NCBI RefSeq assembly: GCF_029813115.1
Contig: NZ_JAPZDS010000027.1
Span: 1-32,077, forward strand
Direction: 5' to 3'
From: Aureimonas sp. SK2
Lineage (GTDB): Bacteria > Pseudomonadota > Alphaproteobacteria > Rhizobiales > Rhizobiaceae
Length of the DNA: 32,077 nucleotides
Positions 544-21,694 of the stretch are shown in pieces; the stretch's first letter is position 1; each line of letters begins with the position of its first letter. The notes under the pieces were generated by a model that was not told where the DNA came from, made no database searches, and was given only the letters and a program-made list of their open reading frames with translations. The translations under genes and the position numbers were made by a program.

Positions 544-1734
544 ATGGGCAAGCCGCAGCGCCGGTTCGGGAAGGAGTTTGAGGCGGAGGCCGTTCGTCTG
601 GTGGAGACGAGCGGACGCACGCAAGCCAAGAGATCGCCGAGGATCTTGGCATCGGGCTTTCGACGTTGCGCCGCTGGCTCGACAAGCGTCGGGAGCGCGA
701 TCTAAAAGCGCCGCCTCCCGAGCGTCAGGAAGACATGGCGGCCGAGCTGAAGCGGCTTCGGCGCGAGAACGAGATCCTGCGCCAGGAGCGCGAACTCTTG
801 AATAGAGCCACGACTTTTTCGCCAAGGAGGATGTCGATGAGGTTCCGCCCCATCGATGCGGCATCGATCAGAGTTCCCCGTCCAGCGTCTGTGCAAGGTC
901 CTCGGCGTCAGTCCGAGCGGCTACTTCGCTTAAAAGGAGCGCCCGGCCTATCACCGTTAGCGTACCGACTTGATGCTGCTCGCCCATGTTCGCGCGGCCT
1001 TTGCCCTATCGAACGGGACCTATGGCAGCCCGCGCATGGTGCACGAGCTACGCGACGCTGGCTTGACGATCGGGCGTCGGCGCGTTGCCCGCCTGATGCG
1101 CCAGAACGGGATGAAGGCGCGGCAGAAGCGGCGCTTCAAGCGCACCACCGACAGCCTGCATGCCTTCCCCCTCGCACCGAACCTCTTGGAACAGGATTTT
1201 ACGGCGACCACGCCGAACCAGAAGTAGCCGATCGGCGCATGCTTGCATGCGCCTGTCGGCTGAGAGGGCGCAGACATCTCCTACGGCTGGACGGGGGAGG
1301 GCTGGCTGTACCTTGCCGTCGTGATCGACCTCTTCGCCCGACGCGTCGTCGGCTGGGCCACCAGTGATCGCGTGCACAAGGAGCTGGCCCTGTCGGCGCT
1401 GCGCCGTGCTATCGCTGTCCGATGTCCCGCTGCTGGGCTCATTCACCACGCGGATCGAGGCAGCCAATACTGCTCGATCGAGTACCAGGCCGAACTGCGG
1501 CGGCACAGCATCCGGATCTCGATGTCTGGCAAGGGAAACTGCTACGACAACGCGATGGTCGAGACCTTCTTCAAGACGCTGAAGGCCGAACTCGTCTGGC
1601 GCTCCGTCTTCAAGAACCGTGCCCAGGCGACCGCCGCCATCGGCCGCTACATCGACGACTTCTACAACCCCATCCGGCGCCATCCAGCGTTGGACTTCAT
1701 CAGCCCGCTTCAGTTCGCGCGACAGGCCGCGTAA
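544..1734 (+). pseudogene. IS3-family transposase (orfA+orfB), multiply disrupted
   Basis: orfA starts at ATG 544 (MGKPQRRFGKEFEAEAVRL). It loses frame near 625-632 and resumes in another frame as STLRRWLDKRRERD with the expected leucine-zipper stretch (AAELKRLRRENEILRQEREL). orfB begins around 837 (MRFRPIDAA), shifts frame near 862-870, and then carries stops at 931 (TAA where Trp is expected after GYFA), 958 (TAG where Gln is expected), 1225 and 1261. The last two stops lie inside a palindromic insertion. The DDE catalytic core is still recognisable: ADISY, then HHADRGSQY, then AMVETFFKTLK. Two frameshifts plus several stops leave no doubt that this is a dead gene. Confidence 0.85.
1225..1268. 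repeat. Small palindromic element (copy A) inside IS3 transposase
   Basis: In orfB the conserved NQKW-V-ADISY stretch is interrupted after NQK (codon 1222-1224) by about 40 extra bases. The coding sequence resumes at GCA 1270. The insert forms an almost perfect hairpin: AGCCGA-TC-GGCGCATGC (1227-1243), a TT turn, and GCATGCGCC-TG-TCGGCT (1246-1262), followed by GAGAGGG. Read on the minus strand it starts CCCTCT and shares the pattern CCGnCAGGCGnnTGC / GCAnnCGCCGA with the insert at 18956-18995. It adds two in-frame stops (1225, 1261). That it is a mobile repeat is inferred from the second copy. Confidence 0.7.
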
Positions 1735-2582: not shown

Positions 2583-4771
2583 AGACCGAGCAGGATTGCA
2601 ATGATCTCGTCGGCGTCTTCTTCCATTGGAACCGAGAAGGCGATCTGAACACGGCCGAGCGGATTGGCGAGCGTCATGTTGCGCACGCTTTTGGTGATAA
2701 GCTCGGAGTTCGGGATGATCAGCGTCGAGCGGTCGCCGATCTGGATCTCGGTGGAGCGAACGTTGATGCGCTTCACGTCTCCCTCGTCTAAGCCGACCCT
2801 GATCGTGTCGCCAATCTTCACCGGACGTTCGGCCAGGAGGATCAGTCCCGAGATGAAGTTCTGGGTGATTGCTTGGAGTCCGAAGCCGATGCCGACCGAA
2901 AGGGCGCTGGCGAGGAGCGCGAAGCGTTCGAGCCCGATGCCAAGGGTCGAAACGGTCCCGAACACCACAACAACAATGCCCACATAACGCACAATGGTAG
3001 ACGCTGAATTGCGTGCCCCAGCGTCGAGGTTCGTCGCGGGTAGAAACGTGCCGTTCATCCAGCGGTCGATCAGCCGTACGGCGCCGAGCCCGATGAGAAC
3101 CACGGCGACTGCGCGCAACACCGCGCCGGGTCGGATCACGACATCCCCGATCCCGATCGACGTGATGCCCGCCAGTTGAGTGTAGGCCGGGGCCGTGCCG
3201 CCTCCCACGGGTGCAAGGACCGCAGACGCCGCCAGCAGCCAGATGGCCACGCGCAGGATCACCGACAGAACAAGGCCGACCTGCTCGACGGTGTCGCCCC
3301 CAAGTCCGAACGCGCGCGCGACGGACCGACCGACGCGGCTGTCCCGTGACAGGGCGGTGGTGATGAGGTCGTCCGCCGCGGTGGCGACGAGGTAGGCACC
3401 CGACACGACCACGACGGCCCATACCGTTTCGCGGCCGATCAGCAAGGCAAGGTTCACGTTGCCGCGGGCGATCGCCAGGATGCTGACGACGACCGTGACC
3501 CATCCGGCCAAGAGCGCGACCGTGGCAAGCGGCTGCCTTGGCGTGGCCTCGCACTGGTCACGGTCTTGGTCTCGGTCGCCCCGGAGGCTTTGGACGGAGA
3601 CCAAGACGTAAACGAGAAGGGCGGCGTTGAGGATAGCCGTGAACAGGTTCGCGGTGACGTTCGCGGGAGGGCTGGCCCCGACGATCCTGTTCAACTCGAT
3701 CAAGCCCGTACCGATGACCGCAACGATCGCGGTCGCGACCGGGATCGGGCGTAGCCGCCCTGCTGTTCGGTCGTCGATCGGCATGAGGCGCCAGGAGGGC
3801 CGATCGACGAGGAGAAGCGCCTCGCCCATGGAGACGGCCACCGCCCCAAAGACGGACGCCAGCGCAAGGCTCCAAGCCAGTGACGACGCTTGCGGCGTCA
3901 ATGCATCCGCCCATTCCAAGCCCTGGACGAGGATGCTGAGGCCTATGGCGCTCCCGAGCGCCCCGACGACGAGGAACCAAAGGGCGAGACCGGATCGGCG
4001 TGCCCGTGTATGCGGGGCGCGGTCGCGTGCGTAGCGTTCACCCGCTTTCCTCAAGGATATGCGCAGCGGCAGCACGACCAGGAGAGCAAGAGCGGCTGTC
4101 GCGCCGAAGACGGCCGCTCCCCCGGCGCTCATTGCCCCCGCGAGACGGGCGCCTGCGGCGGCGAAGAAGTCGGACAGCCTAGCGAGGTCGAACGGCAGGT
4201 TCTCGTCCACCGCTTTCCAGTAGGTGGCTGTGAAGGGCGACGCGACACGCTCGAGCGTGTCGCGGTTGAAAATGTCCGTCACCGTGCGGTTCACGGTCTC
4301 GACCGTTTCCCGGGCCGTGGTTGCGAGAAGGCGCGCGCGCTTGACATCGGAGTCCAGCGTGTCGCGATCCCGTGTCAGGTCGGAGCGCTGCTCCCGGACG
4401 TCGGGTGCCTCGCCTTCAGCCGGTTCTCCGAGTGTTGCGAGCGTTGCCTGCGCAGCTTCCAACTTGGGTGCCAAGGCATCGGCCGAAGCGGTCGCGGCAA
4501 CCACGACAGCTTGGGCACGCGTTCGCAGTGCATCGTAGTCCTCGTTGGGCACCGCCGACTGGAGTGACGACCGGATCGCCTCAAGCTCGGAAGCGCCCTG
4601 GTCGAGGACCACGACCGCATCGGTCGCATCGGTGTGGACCTGCGCCACAACGATCTGAGGTGTGCAGACGAACAACATCGCGAACAGCATGTCGCGGAAC
4701 GAGCGGTGCAGGGATCTCGCGACAGGCCCGCGTCTCCACATTGCCTCACGGGACCTCACGAACGAGTTCAT
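2519..4771 (-). CDS. DUF3772-type MscS mechanosensitive channel, 3' end replaced by IS6
   Basis: This is an inner-membrane channel that would release solutes under osmotic downshock. Residues 1-43 form a signal peptide ending near VVAQ. A periplasmic helical region (about 60-190) matches the DUF3772 type (TRDRDTLDSDVKRARLLATT). Then come about ten membrane segments, and the MscS pore helix and beta domain (IGFGLQAITQNFISGLILL, AERPVKIGDTIRV, IIPNSELITKSVRNMTL). Native coding ends at 2583. The last about 20 residues (APLQTDDQAAM...FLRR) are read out of the IS6 terminus, so the end of the cytoplasmic domain is missing. The start ATG overlaps the upstream hydrolase stop (ATGA), implying translational coupling. 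The product may be non-functional or altered. Confidence 0.82.
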   Translation of the reverse strand: MNSFVRSREAMWRRGPVARSLHRSFRDMLFAMLFVCTPQIVVAQVHTDATDAVVVLDQGASELEAIRSSLQSAVPNEDYDALRTRAQAVVVAATASADALAPKLEAAQATLATLGEPAEGEAPDVREQRSDLTRDRDTLDSDVKRARLLATTARETVETVNRTVTDIFNRDTLERVASPFTATYWKAVDENLPFDLARLSDFFAAAGARLAGAMSAGGAAVFGATAALALLVVLPLRISLRKAGERYARDRAPHTRARRSGLALWFLVVGALGSAIGLSILVQGLEWADALTPQASSLAWSLALASVFGAVAVSMGEALLLVDRPSWRLMPIDDRTAGRLRPIPVATAIVAVIGTGLIELNRIVGASPPANVTANLFTAILNAALLVYVLVSVQSLRGDRDQDRDQCEATPRQPLATVALLAGWVTVVVSILAIARGNVNLALLIGRETVWAVVVVSGAYLVATAADDLITTALSRDSRVGRSVARAFGLGGDTVEQVGLVLSVILRVAIWLLAASAVLAPVGGGTAPAYTQLAGITSIGIGDVVIRPGAVLRAVAVVLIGLGAVRLIDRWMNGTFLPATNLDAGARNSASTIVRYVGIVVVVFGTVSTLGIGLERFALLASALSVGIGFGLQAITQNFISGLILLAERPVKIGDTIRVGLDEGDVKRINVRSTEIQIGDRSTLIIPNSELITKSVRNMTLANPLGRVQIAFSVPMEEDADEIIAILLGLAPLQTDDQAAMIPFCSFLRR

Positions 4772-18503: not shown

Positions 18504-18770
18504 ATGAAGAGGTCGAAGTTTTCCGAGGCGCAGATCGCGTTTGTGCTGAAGCAGGCCGAGGACGGCACGAGCGTTGGCGAGGTGTGCCGCAAGACCGGGA
18601 TCAGCGAGGCGACGTTCTACGCCTGGCGCAAGAAGTATGCGGGACTGATGCCGTCGGAGATGCGGCGACTGCGCCAGCTCGAGGAGGAGAATGCCAAGCT
18701 GAAGCGGCTGGTCGCCGACCTCAGCCTCGACAAGGCGATGTTGCAGGATGTCGTCTCGCGAAAGCTCTGA
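18504..18770 (+). CDS. IS3-family transposase orfA (HTH subunit)
   Basis: This 88-aa protein begins MKRSKFSEAQIAFVLKQAED, with an HTH (GTSVGEVCRKTGISEATFY, AWRKKYAGL) and a C-terminal leucine-zipper stretch (MRRLRQLEEENAKLKRLVAD) ending DVVSRKL. This is the IS407-subgroup pattern. A purine-rich AGAGGAGCTTGGA precedes ATG 18504. orfB lies in the -1 frame, so the full enzyme would need programmed slippage near the orfA end. OrfA itself is intact. Confidence 0.88.
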   Translation: MKRSKFSEAQIAFVLKQAEDGTSVGEVCRKTGISEATFYAWRKKYAGLMPSEMRRLRQLEEENAKLKRLVADLSLDKAMLQDVVSRKL

Positions 18771-19661
18771 GGCCTGACCGGCGCCGGCAACTCGTCGACG
18801 ACGTCAGGAGCACGTGGCAGGTCAGCATCCGGCGGGCCTGTGGTGTGCTTCGGGCGGAGCGATCGAGCTACCACTATCGTGGGCGCCGCGCCGATCAGGC
18901 CGATCTGAAGAAGCGAGTGAAGGAGATCGCCGAGACGCGCGTGCGATACGGTTATCCCTCTGGCCGGCAGGCGATTGCTTGCAATCGCCGAGAGGCGTCG
19001 TATCCATGTGCTGCTCCGACGGGAGGGCTGGGATGTGAACGCCAAACGGATCTATCGTCTTTACAAGGAGATGGGTCTGCAACTGCGGCACAAGCCACCC
19101 AAGCGCCGGGTAAAGGCCAAGCTGAGGGAAGGCCGCTGCGTGGCGTCCTGCTCGAACGAAGTGTGGGCCATGGACTTTGTCCATGACCAGCTTGCGACAG
19201 GGCCGAAGCTGCGGATCCTGACCGTCGTGGACACCTTCAGTCGGTTCTCGCCCGCGGTGGTGCCACGCTTCAGATTCCGGGCGCCCGACGTTGTGGATGT
19301 GCTCGAACGTGTCTGCGGTGAGATGGGCTATCCTGCATCGATCCGGGTCGACCAGGGAAGCGAGTTCGTCTCGCGCGAGTTGGACCTGTGGGCCTATACC
19401 CGCGGTGTCGTGCTTGACTTCTCCCGGCCCGGAAAGCCGACGGACAACGCCTTCATCGAGACGTTCAACGGCAAGTTCCGGGCAGAGTGTCTGAACCAGC
19501 ACTGGTTCATGAGCCTGGACGACGCGGTGCGCAAATGCGAGGCTTGGCGTAGAGACTACAACGAGGTGCGACCTCATAGCGCCATCGGCAACAAACCGCC
19601 GATATCGCTGGTGAACCGGTCAGCGGCACATGGCCCGCCGCCACCGGTCGAAGCTGGATGA
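18767..19661 (+). pseudogene. IS3-family transposase orfB, split by a palindromic insert
   Basis: This is the DDE-type integrase subunit. The first part (RQLVDDVRSTWQVSIRRACG to ETRVRYGY) reads in the -1 frame relative to orfA. After GTGCGATACGGTTAT (ending 18955), 40 extra bases intervene. Normal coding then resumes in a different frame as RRIHVLLRREGWDVNAKRIY. Past the insert the catalytic core is complete: WAMDFVHDQL, IRVDQGSEFV, FIETFNGKFRAECL, and the end HSAIGNKPPISLVN. The insert length (40, one more than a multiple of 3) exactly explains the frame change, so this one event broke an otherwise normal gene. Confidence 0.85.
18956..18995. repeat. Small palindromic element (copy B) inside IS3 orfB
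   Basis: This 40-bp insert runs from CCCTCT (18956-18961) to GAGAGG (18990-18995). The core hairpin is GGCGATTGC-TT-GCAATCGCC (18970-18989), with outer arms CCTCT/AGAGG. It shares CCCTCT, CCGnCAGGCGnnTGC and GCAnnCGCCGA, in the same order and spacing, with the reverse complement of the insert at 1225-1268. The bases that differ in one arm are matched by changes in the other arm, so the stem is kept. Confidence 0.75.
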
Positions 19662-19817: not shown

Positions 19818-20662
19818 GACCGCCTAACAAAACCGCGTTTCGCGCGTTGGTAGGCGATGGGAAGACCTCTTGTTTGCGATGATTTGTGGGCGTCGATCGA
19901 GCCTCTGTTGCCGCCGCCGCCGTCTCGACCGAAGGGCGGGCGCCCGCGCCGCGACGACCGGGCCGCGCTGGGCGGGATCGTGTTCGTTCTGCGGTCGGGC
20001 ATTCCTTGGGAGATGCTGCCCGCCGAGATCGGTTGCTCGGGCATGACGTGCTGGCGCCGCTTGCGCGACTGGCTGGCGGCCGGGGTCTGGGATCGGCTGC
20101 ACCGCGTGCTTCTGGAACGGCTGGCCGATGCTGAACACCTCGACTGGGGCCGCTGCTCGCTTGATAGTGCGAGCGTTGCGGCCAAAAGGGGGGATCGCAG
20201 ATCGGCCCGAACCCGACGGATCGCGGTAAACCGGGGTCGAAGCGCCATCTCGTGGTCGACCGGGAGGGCACGCCGCTCGGCGTGACGCTGTCGGGCGCCA
20301 ACCGGCACGACAGCATGATGCTGGCACCGACCCTGGACGCCGTTCCTGGTGTACGGCGCGGGCGCGGTCGACCGCGTCGTCGCCTCGTCAAGCTGCACGC
20401 CGACAAGGGCTACGATCACAAGCGTTGTCGTCGGGAATGCCGGGCCCGCTCGATTACGCCCCGCATCGCCCGGCGCGGCGTGGAAAGCAGCCAGAAGCTT
20501 GGACGCCATCGCTGGGTCGTGGAGCGGACCTTCGCTTGGCTCGCCCGCTTTCGCCGCCTTGCCGTCCGCTACGAACGCCGCGCCGACATCCACATGGCCT
20601 TCCTCAAACTCGGCTGCGCCCTCGTCTGTCTCAACCAGATCAAACGGTTTTGTTAGGCAGTC
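19818..20662 (+). mobile_element. IS5-family insertion sequence (845 bp) with TAA target duplication
   Basis: The inverted repeats are GACCGCCTAACAAAACCG (19818) and, inverted, GACTGCCTAACAAAACCG (ending 20662), with one mismatch. It is flanked on both sides by TAA (19815-19817 and 20663-20665), the 3-bp TNA duplication typical of the IS1031/IS427 branch of the IS5 family. The clean duplication indicates a recent, simple insertion into the gap between the IS3 copy and the DUF4105 gene. Confidence 0.88.
19857..20656 (+). CDS. IS5-family transposase, two frames joined by probable -1 slippage
   Basis: Frame 1 (from ATG 19857, MGRPLVCDDLWASIEPLLPP) carries the DUF4096-type N-terminal domain and reaches DSASVAAKRG. 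Frame 2, in the -1 phase, continues GPNPTDRGKPGSKRHLVVDR and ends at 20656. It holds a catalytic-core Asp in HADKGYD and the Glu in WVVERTFAWLARFRRL. The join falls at AAAAGGGGGG (20184-20193), a classic slippery run, so the two-frame layout is likely normal programmed frameshifting for this IS branch rather than damage. Both frames are open right through the overlap. Confidence 0.82.
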
Positions 20663-20692
20663 TAATACTGCCGTGATAATAAGGGGTGATAC

Positions 20693-21694
20693 CTATTTTG
20701 GGCTGCCTCGAATGACGTTAGAGTAAGGGGCGTCATTCGGCGCTGCCCGAGCGAGCGCGCTGATCGCAGCTTGCCGACGCAGTTCAGGTTCAGGCAATTT
20801 CGAGACAAGGACATTTTGATCTATAAGGTATCCTGGAAGATAGCCGGACAGGAGGATCCGCCAGTCGGTCGGAAGGCCCGGCTCGATCAGCTGGGCCAAG
20901 TCGAAGATCACCGTGGTGCAGTTGGCGGTCAAAGTGTTGTAGAATGCCGGCTCGCGAGCCAGTTTGTTGCCTGTCTCAACGTAGCGGAGAAACAAAGCGC
21001 GCATCGCTTCCGGCGGTAGGGCAAGCGGGTAGAGGTAGGTGTCTTCGCCCCGCATGTTGGTGCGGAGATACAGGATGTCGCTTTCCTCGGAAGCGATCAA
21101 AGCCAGTTCATAGACCTTAAAGAAGCCCGCGATCGAGGAGAACACCTCGTCCCGCTCGCGCCGGATCTCGACCGAGAAGACCACCCGTCGGCCATCCGAG
21201 AAACCGAAGCTGACGAGCGTGTGCGCGATGGCATCGATGCCCCAGTAGGACAACACGAGGTCGGTCTCGACGAGTTTTGAAAGGTCGTACTTGCGCCAAT
21301 CCCAGCGTTCGTCCGCTTCACTCTCGCTTGTCCAGCGGAAGTCTCGGACATTTAGAAGGGTGACGACGTCGCCCGTCGCGCTCCCGGTAACCGTTCGCGC
21401 GACGTCCGGTGCCCAACTGCGATCCAGTCGTGGCTTGATGGACCACCACCAACCGCTGAAACCAACGGCAAGCAACGCCAGCAGCGCGATGCCGAGACGC
21501 GGCCGCCTTGTCGATAGCCAGCCCGCAGCGAACAGCACGAAAACCCAAAACACGACTGCCGCGGTCCGCCCTGATATGCTTTCACCGGCGTGGAACCACA
21601 GACTCATGCAGCTCCAGATCGACAGCGACAGAAAAGCTAGGAGGAGGACCAGCTTGCCTATCGTTCCAAGGATTGCTGTTAGCGAACTTCTCAT
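20693..21694 (-). CDS. DUF4105 (Lnb N-terminal-like) membrane protein
   Basis: This 333-aa protein has three N-terminal membrane helices (about residues 13-35, 43-60, 66-85). A soluble domain with the DUF4105 pattern follows. Candidate catalytic residues are His in DAIAHTLVSFGF and Cys in LTANCTTVIFD, which fits the Cys/His arrangement of this family. In Lnb, a family member, such a domain takes part in lipoprotein acylation; a similar cysteine acyl-transfer or hydrolase role here is only inferred. ATG 21694 overlaps the stop of the upstream lipoprotein hydrolase by 4 bp, so the two are translationally coupled. Confidence 0.75.
   Translation of the reverse strand: MRSSLTAILGTIGKLVLLLAFLSLSIWSCMSLWFHAGESISGRTAAVVFWVFVLFAAGWLSTRRPRLGIALLALLAVGFSGWWWSIKPRLDRSWAPDVARTVTGSATGDVVTLLNVRDFRWTSESEADERWDWRKYDLSKLVETDLVLSYWGIDAIAHTLVSFGFSDGRRVVFSVEIRRERDEVFSSIAGFFKVYELALIASEESDILYLRTNMRGEDTYLYPLALPPEAMRALFLRYVETGNKLAREPAFYNTLTANCTTVIFDLAQLIEPGLPTDWRILLSGYLPGYLIDQNVLVSKLPEPELRRQAAISALARAAPNDAPYSNVIRGSPK

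Follow-up and report, generated by a model that had tools for sequence, protein, structure and literature searches.

Copies A and B are one hairpin

Two transposase genes in the window (the whole stretch of 32,077 nucleotides of Aureimonas sp. SK2 DNA that was analyzed) are each broken by about 40 extra bases, and the question that this locus raises is whether the two inserts are one mobile element and, if so, what moves it. Copies A and B represent the same hairpin, and each interrupts the transposase gene of an IS3-family element (Table 1). They align with a score of 14, against a maximum of 6 among 5,000 pairs of mononucleotide shuffles, and the core CAGGCGNNTGCNNGCANNCGCC, searched without mismatch, occurs at exactly two places in the 4.56-Mb genome, both in the window, as parts of A and B. 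Relative to the host gene, A lies antisense and B sense. As single-stranded DNA, copy A folds at -16.2 kcal/mol (z = -4.95), which none of 200 shuffles equaled, and the fold of copy B is moderate and not striking alone (-10.2; z = -1.51; 12 of 200 shuffles as good). An earlier note on this DNA had proposed that a small structured repeat, lacking any gene, had inserted twice, and the alignment of A with B, the fold, and the empty sites described below bear this out. It also called the two host elements unrelated; both match the IS3-family model NF033516, yet they are different IS3 elements.

Copy A splits OrfB of its host, with NQK(W) before the element and ADISY after it. The right part of this host matches NF033516 (IS3 transposase) with an E value of 7e-56, and the host is decayed, with further stops and frame breaks; in-frame stops were also seen by eye within copy A itself. 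The palindrome does lie at 1225-1268, where the earlier note had placed the element, whereas uninterrupted relatives give a shorter net insert (Table 1), the ends of which are ambiguous by one base (1227-1265 fits equally). The covariance model matches at 1226-1267. Directly 3' of the decayed IS3 is an IS6-family transposase gene (1777-2529; NF033587, E = 1e-81).

The coordinates first given for copy B were exact. The right part of its host matches NF033516 with an E value of 1.2e-54, and the copy shifts the frame of OrfB by one base. It is the sole break seen in that OrfB, and the translated stretches on both sides are open. Among the records matched in a plasmid search with this IS, 184 of 1,849 match it at one place over at least 80% of its length; of the 15 relatives listed, 11 are exactly 40 bp shorter, three are 41, 42, and 50 bp shorter, and one matches in two pieces. 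An IS5-family transposase (19857-20726; first part NF033580, E = 1.8e-31), apparently in two frames, lies directly 3' of this IS3.

Table 1. Positions in the window of the two hairpin copies and their host genes
Feature	Position	Strand	Evidence
Copy A, 39-bp insert	1228..1266	-	Empty sites L224, L225, and L231; filled relatives L223 and L229
Central hairpin of copy A, GGCGCATGC AA GCATGCGCC	1234..1253	-	Fold and pattern match
IS3-family OrfA/OrfB, host of copy A	544..1734	+	Translation, NF033516, uninterrupted relatives aligned
Copy B, 40-bp insert	18956..18995	+	Empty sites L206, L207, L208, L210, and L211; model match 18956-18997
Central hairpin of copy B, GGCGATTGC TT GCAATCGCC	18970..18989	+	Fold and sequence
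OrfA of the IS3-family host of copy B	18504..18770	+	ORF list and sequence; start read from sequence
OrfB of the IS3-family host of copy B	18740..19661	+	Translation; left edge is the reading start, not a known start

Empty sites and precision of insertion

Both sites are empty in other IS copies within the genus (Table 1), and these uninterrupted relatives rule out that the hairpin is a fixed part of all copies of the IS, one of two findings that the earlier note had named as fatal to its proposal; the other, an absence of further copies, is contradicted by the copies in related genomes. Filled and empty forms of sites A and B differ by 39 to 40 bp, seamlessly and without target duplication, as is expected of insertion of the IS200/IS605 type. 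The Shinella pair is as precise: a filled copy (L331) and the annotated IS3 transposase of S. zoogloeoides (L340) are exactly 40 bp apart at 95.1% identity, and the junction, GGTTAT^CGCAAGC, shows no duplication or loss of target and falls on the codon boundary of site B. Separate IS3 lineages, and Shinella as well, have the element at this boundary, YGY^RRI. The target often resembles (T/C)C^(G/C) (about 14 sites by eye, several of them lacking a sequenced empty site), with only a loose fit at site A and at the LW sites. The Pseudosulfitobacter junction is not clean, and that of L115 may include a duplication of 3 to 4 bp (by eye, at a site with no empty counterpart). We also considered whether the letters of the stem guide the element to its target, as the stem type tracks the site in Hyphomicrobiales (ATTGC at B and CATGC at A); this idea was dropped because the Mangrovicoccus stem type AATGC sits in both IS21 and IS256 genes (L105 and L113).

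A dispersed family of palindromic elements

A dispersed family of such palindromic elements is present in Alphaproteobacteria. The scan pattern CCGRCAGGCG-N12-CGCCGANAGG, in which the inner stem is unconstrained, matched at least 119 stretches in the genome collection and 6 in viral contigs. Among the 128 matches listed (125 loci), 64 have all five inner-stem pairs, 18 have four, and 6 have three, followed by 11 with two, 16 with one, and 13 with none. As the inner stem was left free, this bimodal pairing is unbiased evidence for a structured family. Three of the 82 listed matches with four or five pairs are on viral contigs (L199, L202, and L203), and the rest come from records whose titles name Alphaproteobacteria, chiefly Rhodobacterales and Hyphomicrobiales; the one exception, L169, is titled only Proteobacteria.

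The consensus unit is S-CC-GRCA-GGCGNNTGC-NN-GCANNCGCC-GANA-GG-S', and a short 5' tail resembling CTCTYR or CCNYTG comes before it; that is, a 9-bp hairpin with a 2-nucleotide loop stands on the symmetric internal loop GRCA/GANA, which is closed by S-CC/GG-S'. The element is about 38 to 42 bp long and carries no gene. In an alignment of 80 distinct rows (A1; L175 and duplicates left out), 98.5% of cells are paired, compared with 28 to 42% when slid, and none of 500 shuffles reached the covariation score, figures that are partly by construction since the rows were picked for pairing. The closing pair S-S' (columns 8 and 41) played no part in the search or in the choice of rows, and it is formed in 68 of the 80 (GC 31, CG 30, AU 4, GU 2, and UG 1; 12 unpaired), and in 35 of those 68 the pairing is kept by change on both sides. 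Rfam 15 gave no match at the gathering score in the five sources searched (the window, L135, L082, L123, and L106).

Intergenic copies from Salipiger, Leisingera, and a Rhizobium MAG have an extra hairpin between tail and core. The copies L082, L123, L120, L131, L146, and L165, which are intergenic and bear this extra hairpin, make up a structured repeat of greater size, which may be a three-way junction, and some Salipiger copies have a third hairpin as well.

Recognizable copies, with their contexts read, are present in at least 6 of 21 genomes of the genus (G000, G001, G002, G010, G019, and G020); matches in three others (G008, G016, and G018) look like chance and lie within coding sequence. 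Model matches were found in 11 of 121 genomes drawn from the family, the genome of the window included. Copy number is low, at 1 to 25 model matches per genome in 28 genomes chosen as carriers, with the highest counts in Mangrovicoccus ximenensis (25), Poseidonocella HB161398 (18), and Mangrovicoccus HB161399 (18).

Copies lie in transposase genes and intergenic DNA

By eye, 46 of the 82 listed copies lie in mobile-element genes, namely, those of IS3, IS5, IS21, IS66, IS91, IS256, IS481-like, and IS1182 elements and of a tyrosine recombinase. The 36 elsewhere comprise 30 intergenic copies, the 3 on viral contigs, 2 that are ambiguous (L087 and L196), and 1 that is probably a chance match (L175). 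None of the 82 was recognized by eye in an ordinary cellular gene. When the most convincing coding stretch within 600 bp was picked by eye, about 21 of the 30 intergenic copies lay 3' of it. In Aureimonas, all 17 copies examined are in transposase or recombinase genes, one of them decayed, and none is intergenic; this count leaves out one model match each in G174 and G175. Transposase genes of many IS families are thus a home for a smaller mobile sequence.

Profile searches agree with the reading by eye. NCBIfam models matched singly to eight flank peptides gave the same hosts (L112, L117, L126, L129, L143, L169, L172, and window copy A), and with one flank peptide for each of 81 of 86 copies the overlapping counts were 19 for IS3, 16 for IS481, 7 for IS21, and 5 for IS66. 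Pfam placed rve in 13 of the same 81 peptides, HTH_21 in 10, and DDE_Tnp_IS66 in 5. The chance matches of the scan served as a control: of these 46, 45 were used (one overlapping row was dropped), and the 25 listed of 53 Pfam families included no transposase. Six plasmid copies, from 58 and 63 matching records, lie within or next to transposase sequence of IS3, IS5, or IS30 (by eye), five of them flanked on both sides and L332 on one side only.

Two assignments were revised. The host of the copy at L106:3583, taken for istB, proved to be IS5-like sequence, and at L135, read as a gene flanked by two elements, one copy is within a gene for a tyrosine recombinase and the second within a transposase gene of the IS91 type (by eye). 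A copy in L353 (G191:C185) interrupts an IS110-like (DEDD) transposase, also by eye.

Recurrent insertion and its effect on the host gene

Recurrence is demonstrated, as are the family and the precision of its insertion. A tree of site B was built from the seven filled and five empty copies that passed a rule on pattern and length (further known copies, both filled and empty, fell out), and on it the filled and empty states require four changes, gains or losses, of which starred branches force at least three. Shuffling gives a mean of 4.0 as well, which means that filled copies are clustered on the tree no more than by chance. On branches of about 0.04, window copy B is joined to two empty copies (support, 94/95), and some insertions are probably recent. 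In the OrfA region of IS3, different species show two distinct junctions that are about 4 bp apart; the OrfA tree is weak, with a false row (L053), three rows from another site (the L129 group), and long branches, and was used for junctions only.

A single IS66 copy of Thioclava indica (L280) holds four elements in tnpB and tnpC, at 4229, 4544, 6140, and 6521, three of them found by the model and one by eye. The same IS66 element also holds an IS110-like element (by eye). Another site that appears to recur is in an istA-like gene of IS21, where the same codon boundary is occupied in two genomes (L093, L350, and L351; by eye).

The seven inserts at site B are 38 to 40 bp long, and five of them, at 38 or 40 bp, shift the frame. 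The Aureimonas pseudogalii insert of 39 bp is in frame and open, and two IS remnants there are 97.6% identical over 589 bp. The Pseudosulfitobacter insert, with a net length of 42 bp, is likewise in frame and open; two IS copies in one plasmid are 97.7% identical over 1,140 bp, each with other lesions. In both cases the IS multiplied with its insert, in trans or by itself.

How the hairpin may move

Genes for the obvious candidate enzymes are scarce in carriers. For the usual enzyme, a transposase of the Y1 HUH type, a search with Y1_Tnp (PF01797) had no match in any of the 18 element-bearing genomes or of the 21 genomes of the genus (the two sets probably share two genomes) and was positive in 5 of 14 control genomes. 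Y2_Tnp, of the IS91 type, was found in 3 of 21 genus genomes and 2 of 6 Aureimonas carriers and in 0 of 14 controls, so this search had no positive control. RVT_1 was found in 6 of 21 genus genomes; it was over the cutoff in 1 of 6 Aureimonas carriers and weak in one more.

We favor, with a probability of roughly 60%, a non-autonomous REP-like palindrome that is inserted as a folded single strand by a trans-acting enzyme. Because Y1 was not found and RVT_1 and Y2_Tnp are missing from most Aureimonas carriers, the enzyme would act in trans and not be resident in most of them; it may be a single-stranded-DNA-processing enzyme supplied, for example, by a passing plasmid or phage. By analogy, the element would move as a folded single strand, and the seamless insertion of a strong hairpin points to such a strand being joined into a short target, presumably one resembling (T/C)C^(G/C). 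Copies would also spread with their host IS. The bias toward transposase genes probably reflects both a genuine preference for certain sites and the persistence of insertions where the DNA is dispensable. The single-strand route, the enzyme, and the cause of the bias are inferred. The failure to find an enzyme, the low copy number, the weakness of the fold of B relative to shuffles, the unclean Pseudosulfitobacter junction, the possible duplication at L115, the loose fit of some sites to a target motif read by eye, and losses, which could explain some of the changes between filled and empty, count against this explanation.

More tentatively, and with odds clearly below even, the hairpin could be a hyperparasite of IS elements, a 39-bp sequence homing into conserved transposase positions of many unrelated IS families by a new class of single-stranded-DNA integrase that its carriers do not encode. 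Equally doubtful is random insertion across the genome, with copies outside IS genes and intergenic DNA selected out. The absence of recognized copies from ordinary cellular genes among the 82 would follow from such selection, and a motif as weak as (T/C)C^(G/C) would be common, yet intergenic DNA is presumably the larger neutral space and all 17 Aureimonas copies are in transposase or recombinase genes; the occupation of one codon boundary in separate IS lineages also argues against randomness.

It is unlikely that the hairpins are immobile now, with a few old insertions having spread with IS elements that were mobilized in trans or remained active when the insert was in frame. The insert-bearing IS did multiply in the Pseudosulfitobacter plasmid and in A. 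pseudogalii, both in frame, but window copy B stands among empty copies only a few percent diverged, and the empty Shinella site and the two junctions in the OrfA region likewise speak against old insertions alone. Insertion through RNA, by a reverse transcriptase or in the manner of a group II intron, is very improbable: it would suit a strong hairpin inserted without target duplication, but not the rarity of RVT_1 in the Aureimonas carriers or the occurrence of both orientations relative to the host gene.

The earlier note had linked the repeat to a RAYT/TnpA-Y1 enzyme, and this link finds no support here; we give a REP/RAYT system very little chance. In the available text of the sources (PMC6006769, PMC2817692, and PMC8266576), REPs of the RAYT/TnpA-REP type resemble the hairpin in a length of 20 to 40 bp, an internal mismatch, the lack of a gene of their own, and many intergenic copies 3' of genes, and a palindrome of 20 to 40 nucleotides with a mismatch or bulge is indeed what the hairpin is. 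However, no carrier or genus genome searched had a Y1/RAYT gene for the repeat to flank, and neither strand has the GTAG or GGAG foot, there being no conserved GTAG beside the stem (A1, by eye). Nor are the copies extragenic and numerous as REPs are, with more than half of the 82 in mobile-element genes and few per carrier.

Least probable of all is a tolerated intervening sequence that leaves the transposase functional, either by translational bypass or as an in-frame peptide as in the Rickettsia palindromic elements: in Pseudosulfitobacter and A. pseudogalii the insert keeps an open frame, but most inserts at site B shift the frame, copy A has in-frame stops, and bypass is rejected on the grounds that the element occurs in either orientation and has no suitable landing codon (by eye, copy B has none matching the take-off codon).

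Relation to known palindromic repeats

Rickettsia palindromic elements are palindromes inserted in reading frames, sometimes in frame; they are longer and lie in ordinary genes, whereas the hairpin is about 39 bp and lies in transposase genes. Byps of Magnusiomyces mitochondria are short mobile GC-rich hairpins that are bypassed inside reading frames. In contrast to them, the hairpin occurs in both orientations, lacks take-off and landing codons at B, and mostly shifts the frame at site B. The portions of the literature searched held no description of this hairpin element, and the word transposase does not occur in the available part of the RepRanger paper (PMC12306157).

The closest described group is that of the CGTC repeats. 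According to the available text of PMC3733652, these are short palindromes, mostly of Alphaproteobacteria, that seem to lack a dedicated transposase and have few and fortuitous associations with transposase genes; some are intragenic, and two families correspond to the Rickettsia palindromic elements. They have a CGTC, TGTC, or CCTC foot, a stem of 8 to 9 bp starting with a complementary AT, a loop of 4 to 5 nucleotides, and a CCA tail (PMC3733652). Both groups are thus short alphaproteobacterial palindromes for which no dedicated transposase has been found, whereas foot, stem start, loop, and tail differ (alignment A1 compared with PMC3733652). That some short palindromes have no resident RAYT is a recognized puzzle, as the CGTC repeats illustrate in the same text (PMC3733652). 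Here, precise, probably recent, and repeated insertion, together with empty sites at about 95% identity, makes the missing enzyme and the target rule directly searchable. Two copies of the Rhizobium MAG (L128 and L174) have the two-hairpin form within sequence resembling a CGTC-type repeat (GTCATTCCGGG...CCCGGAATCC).
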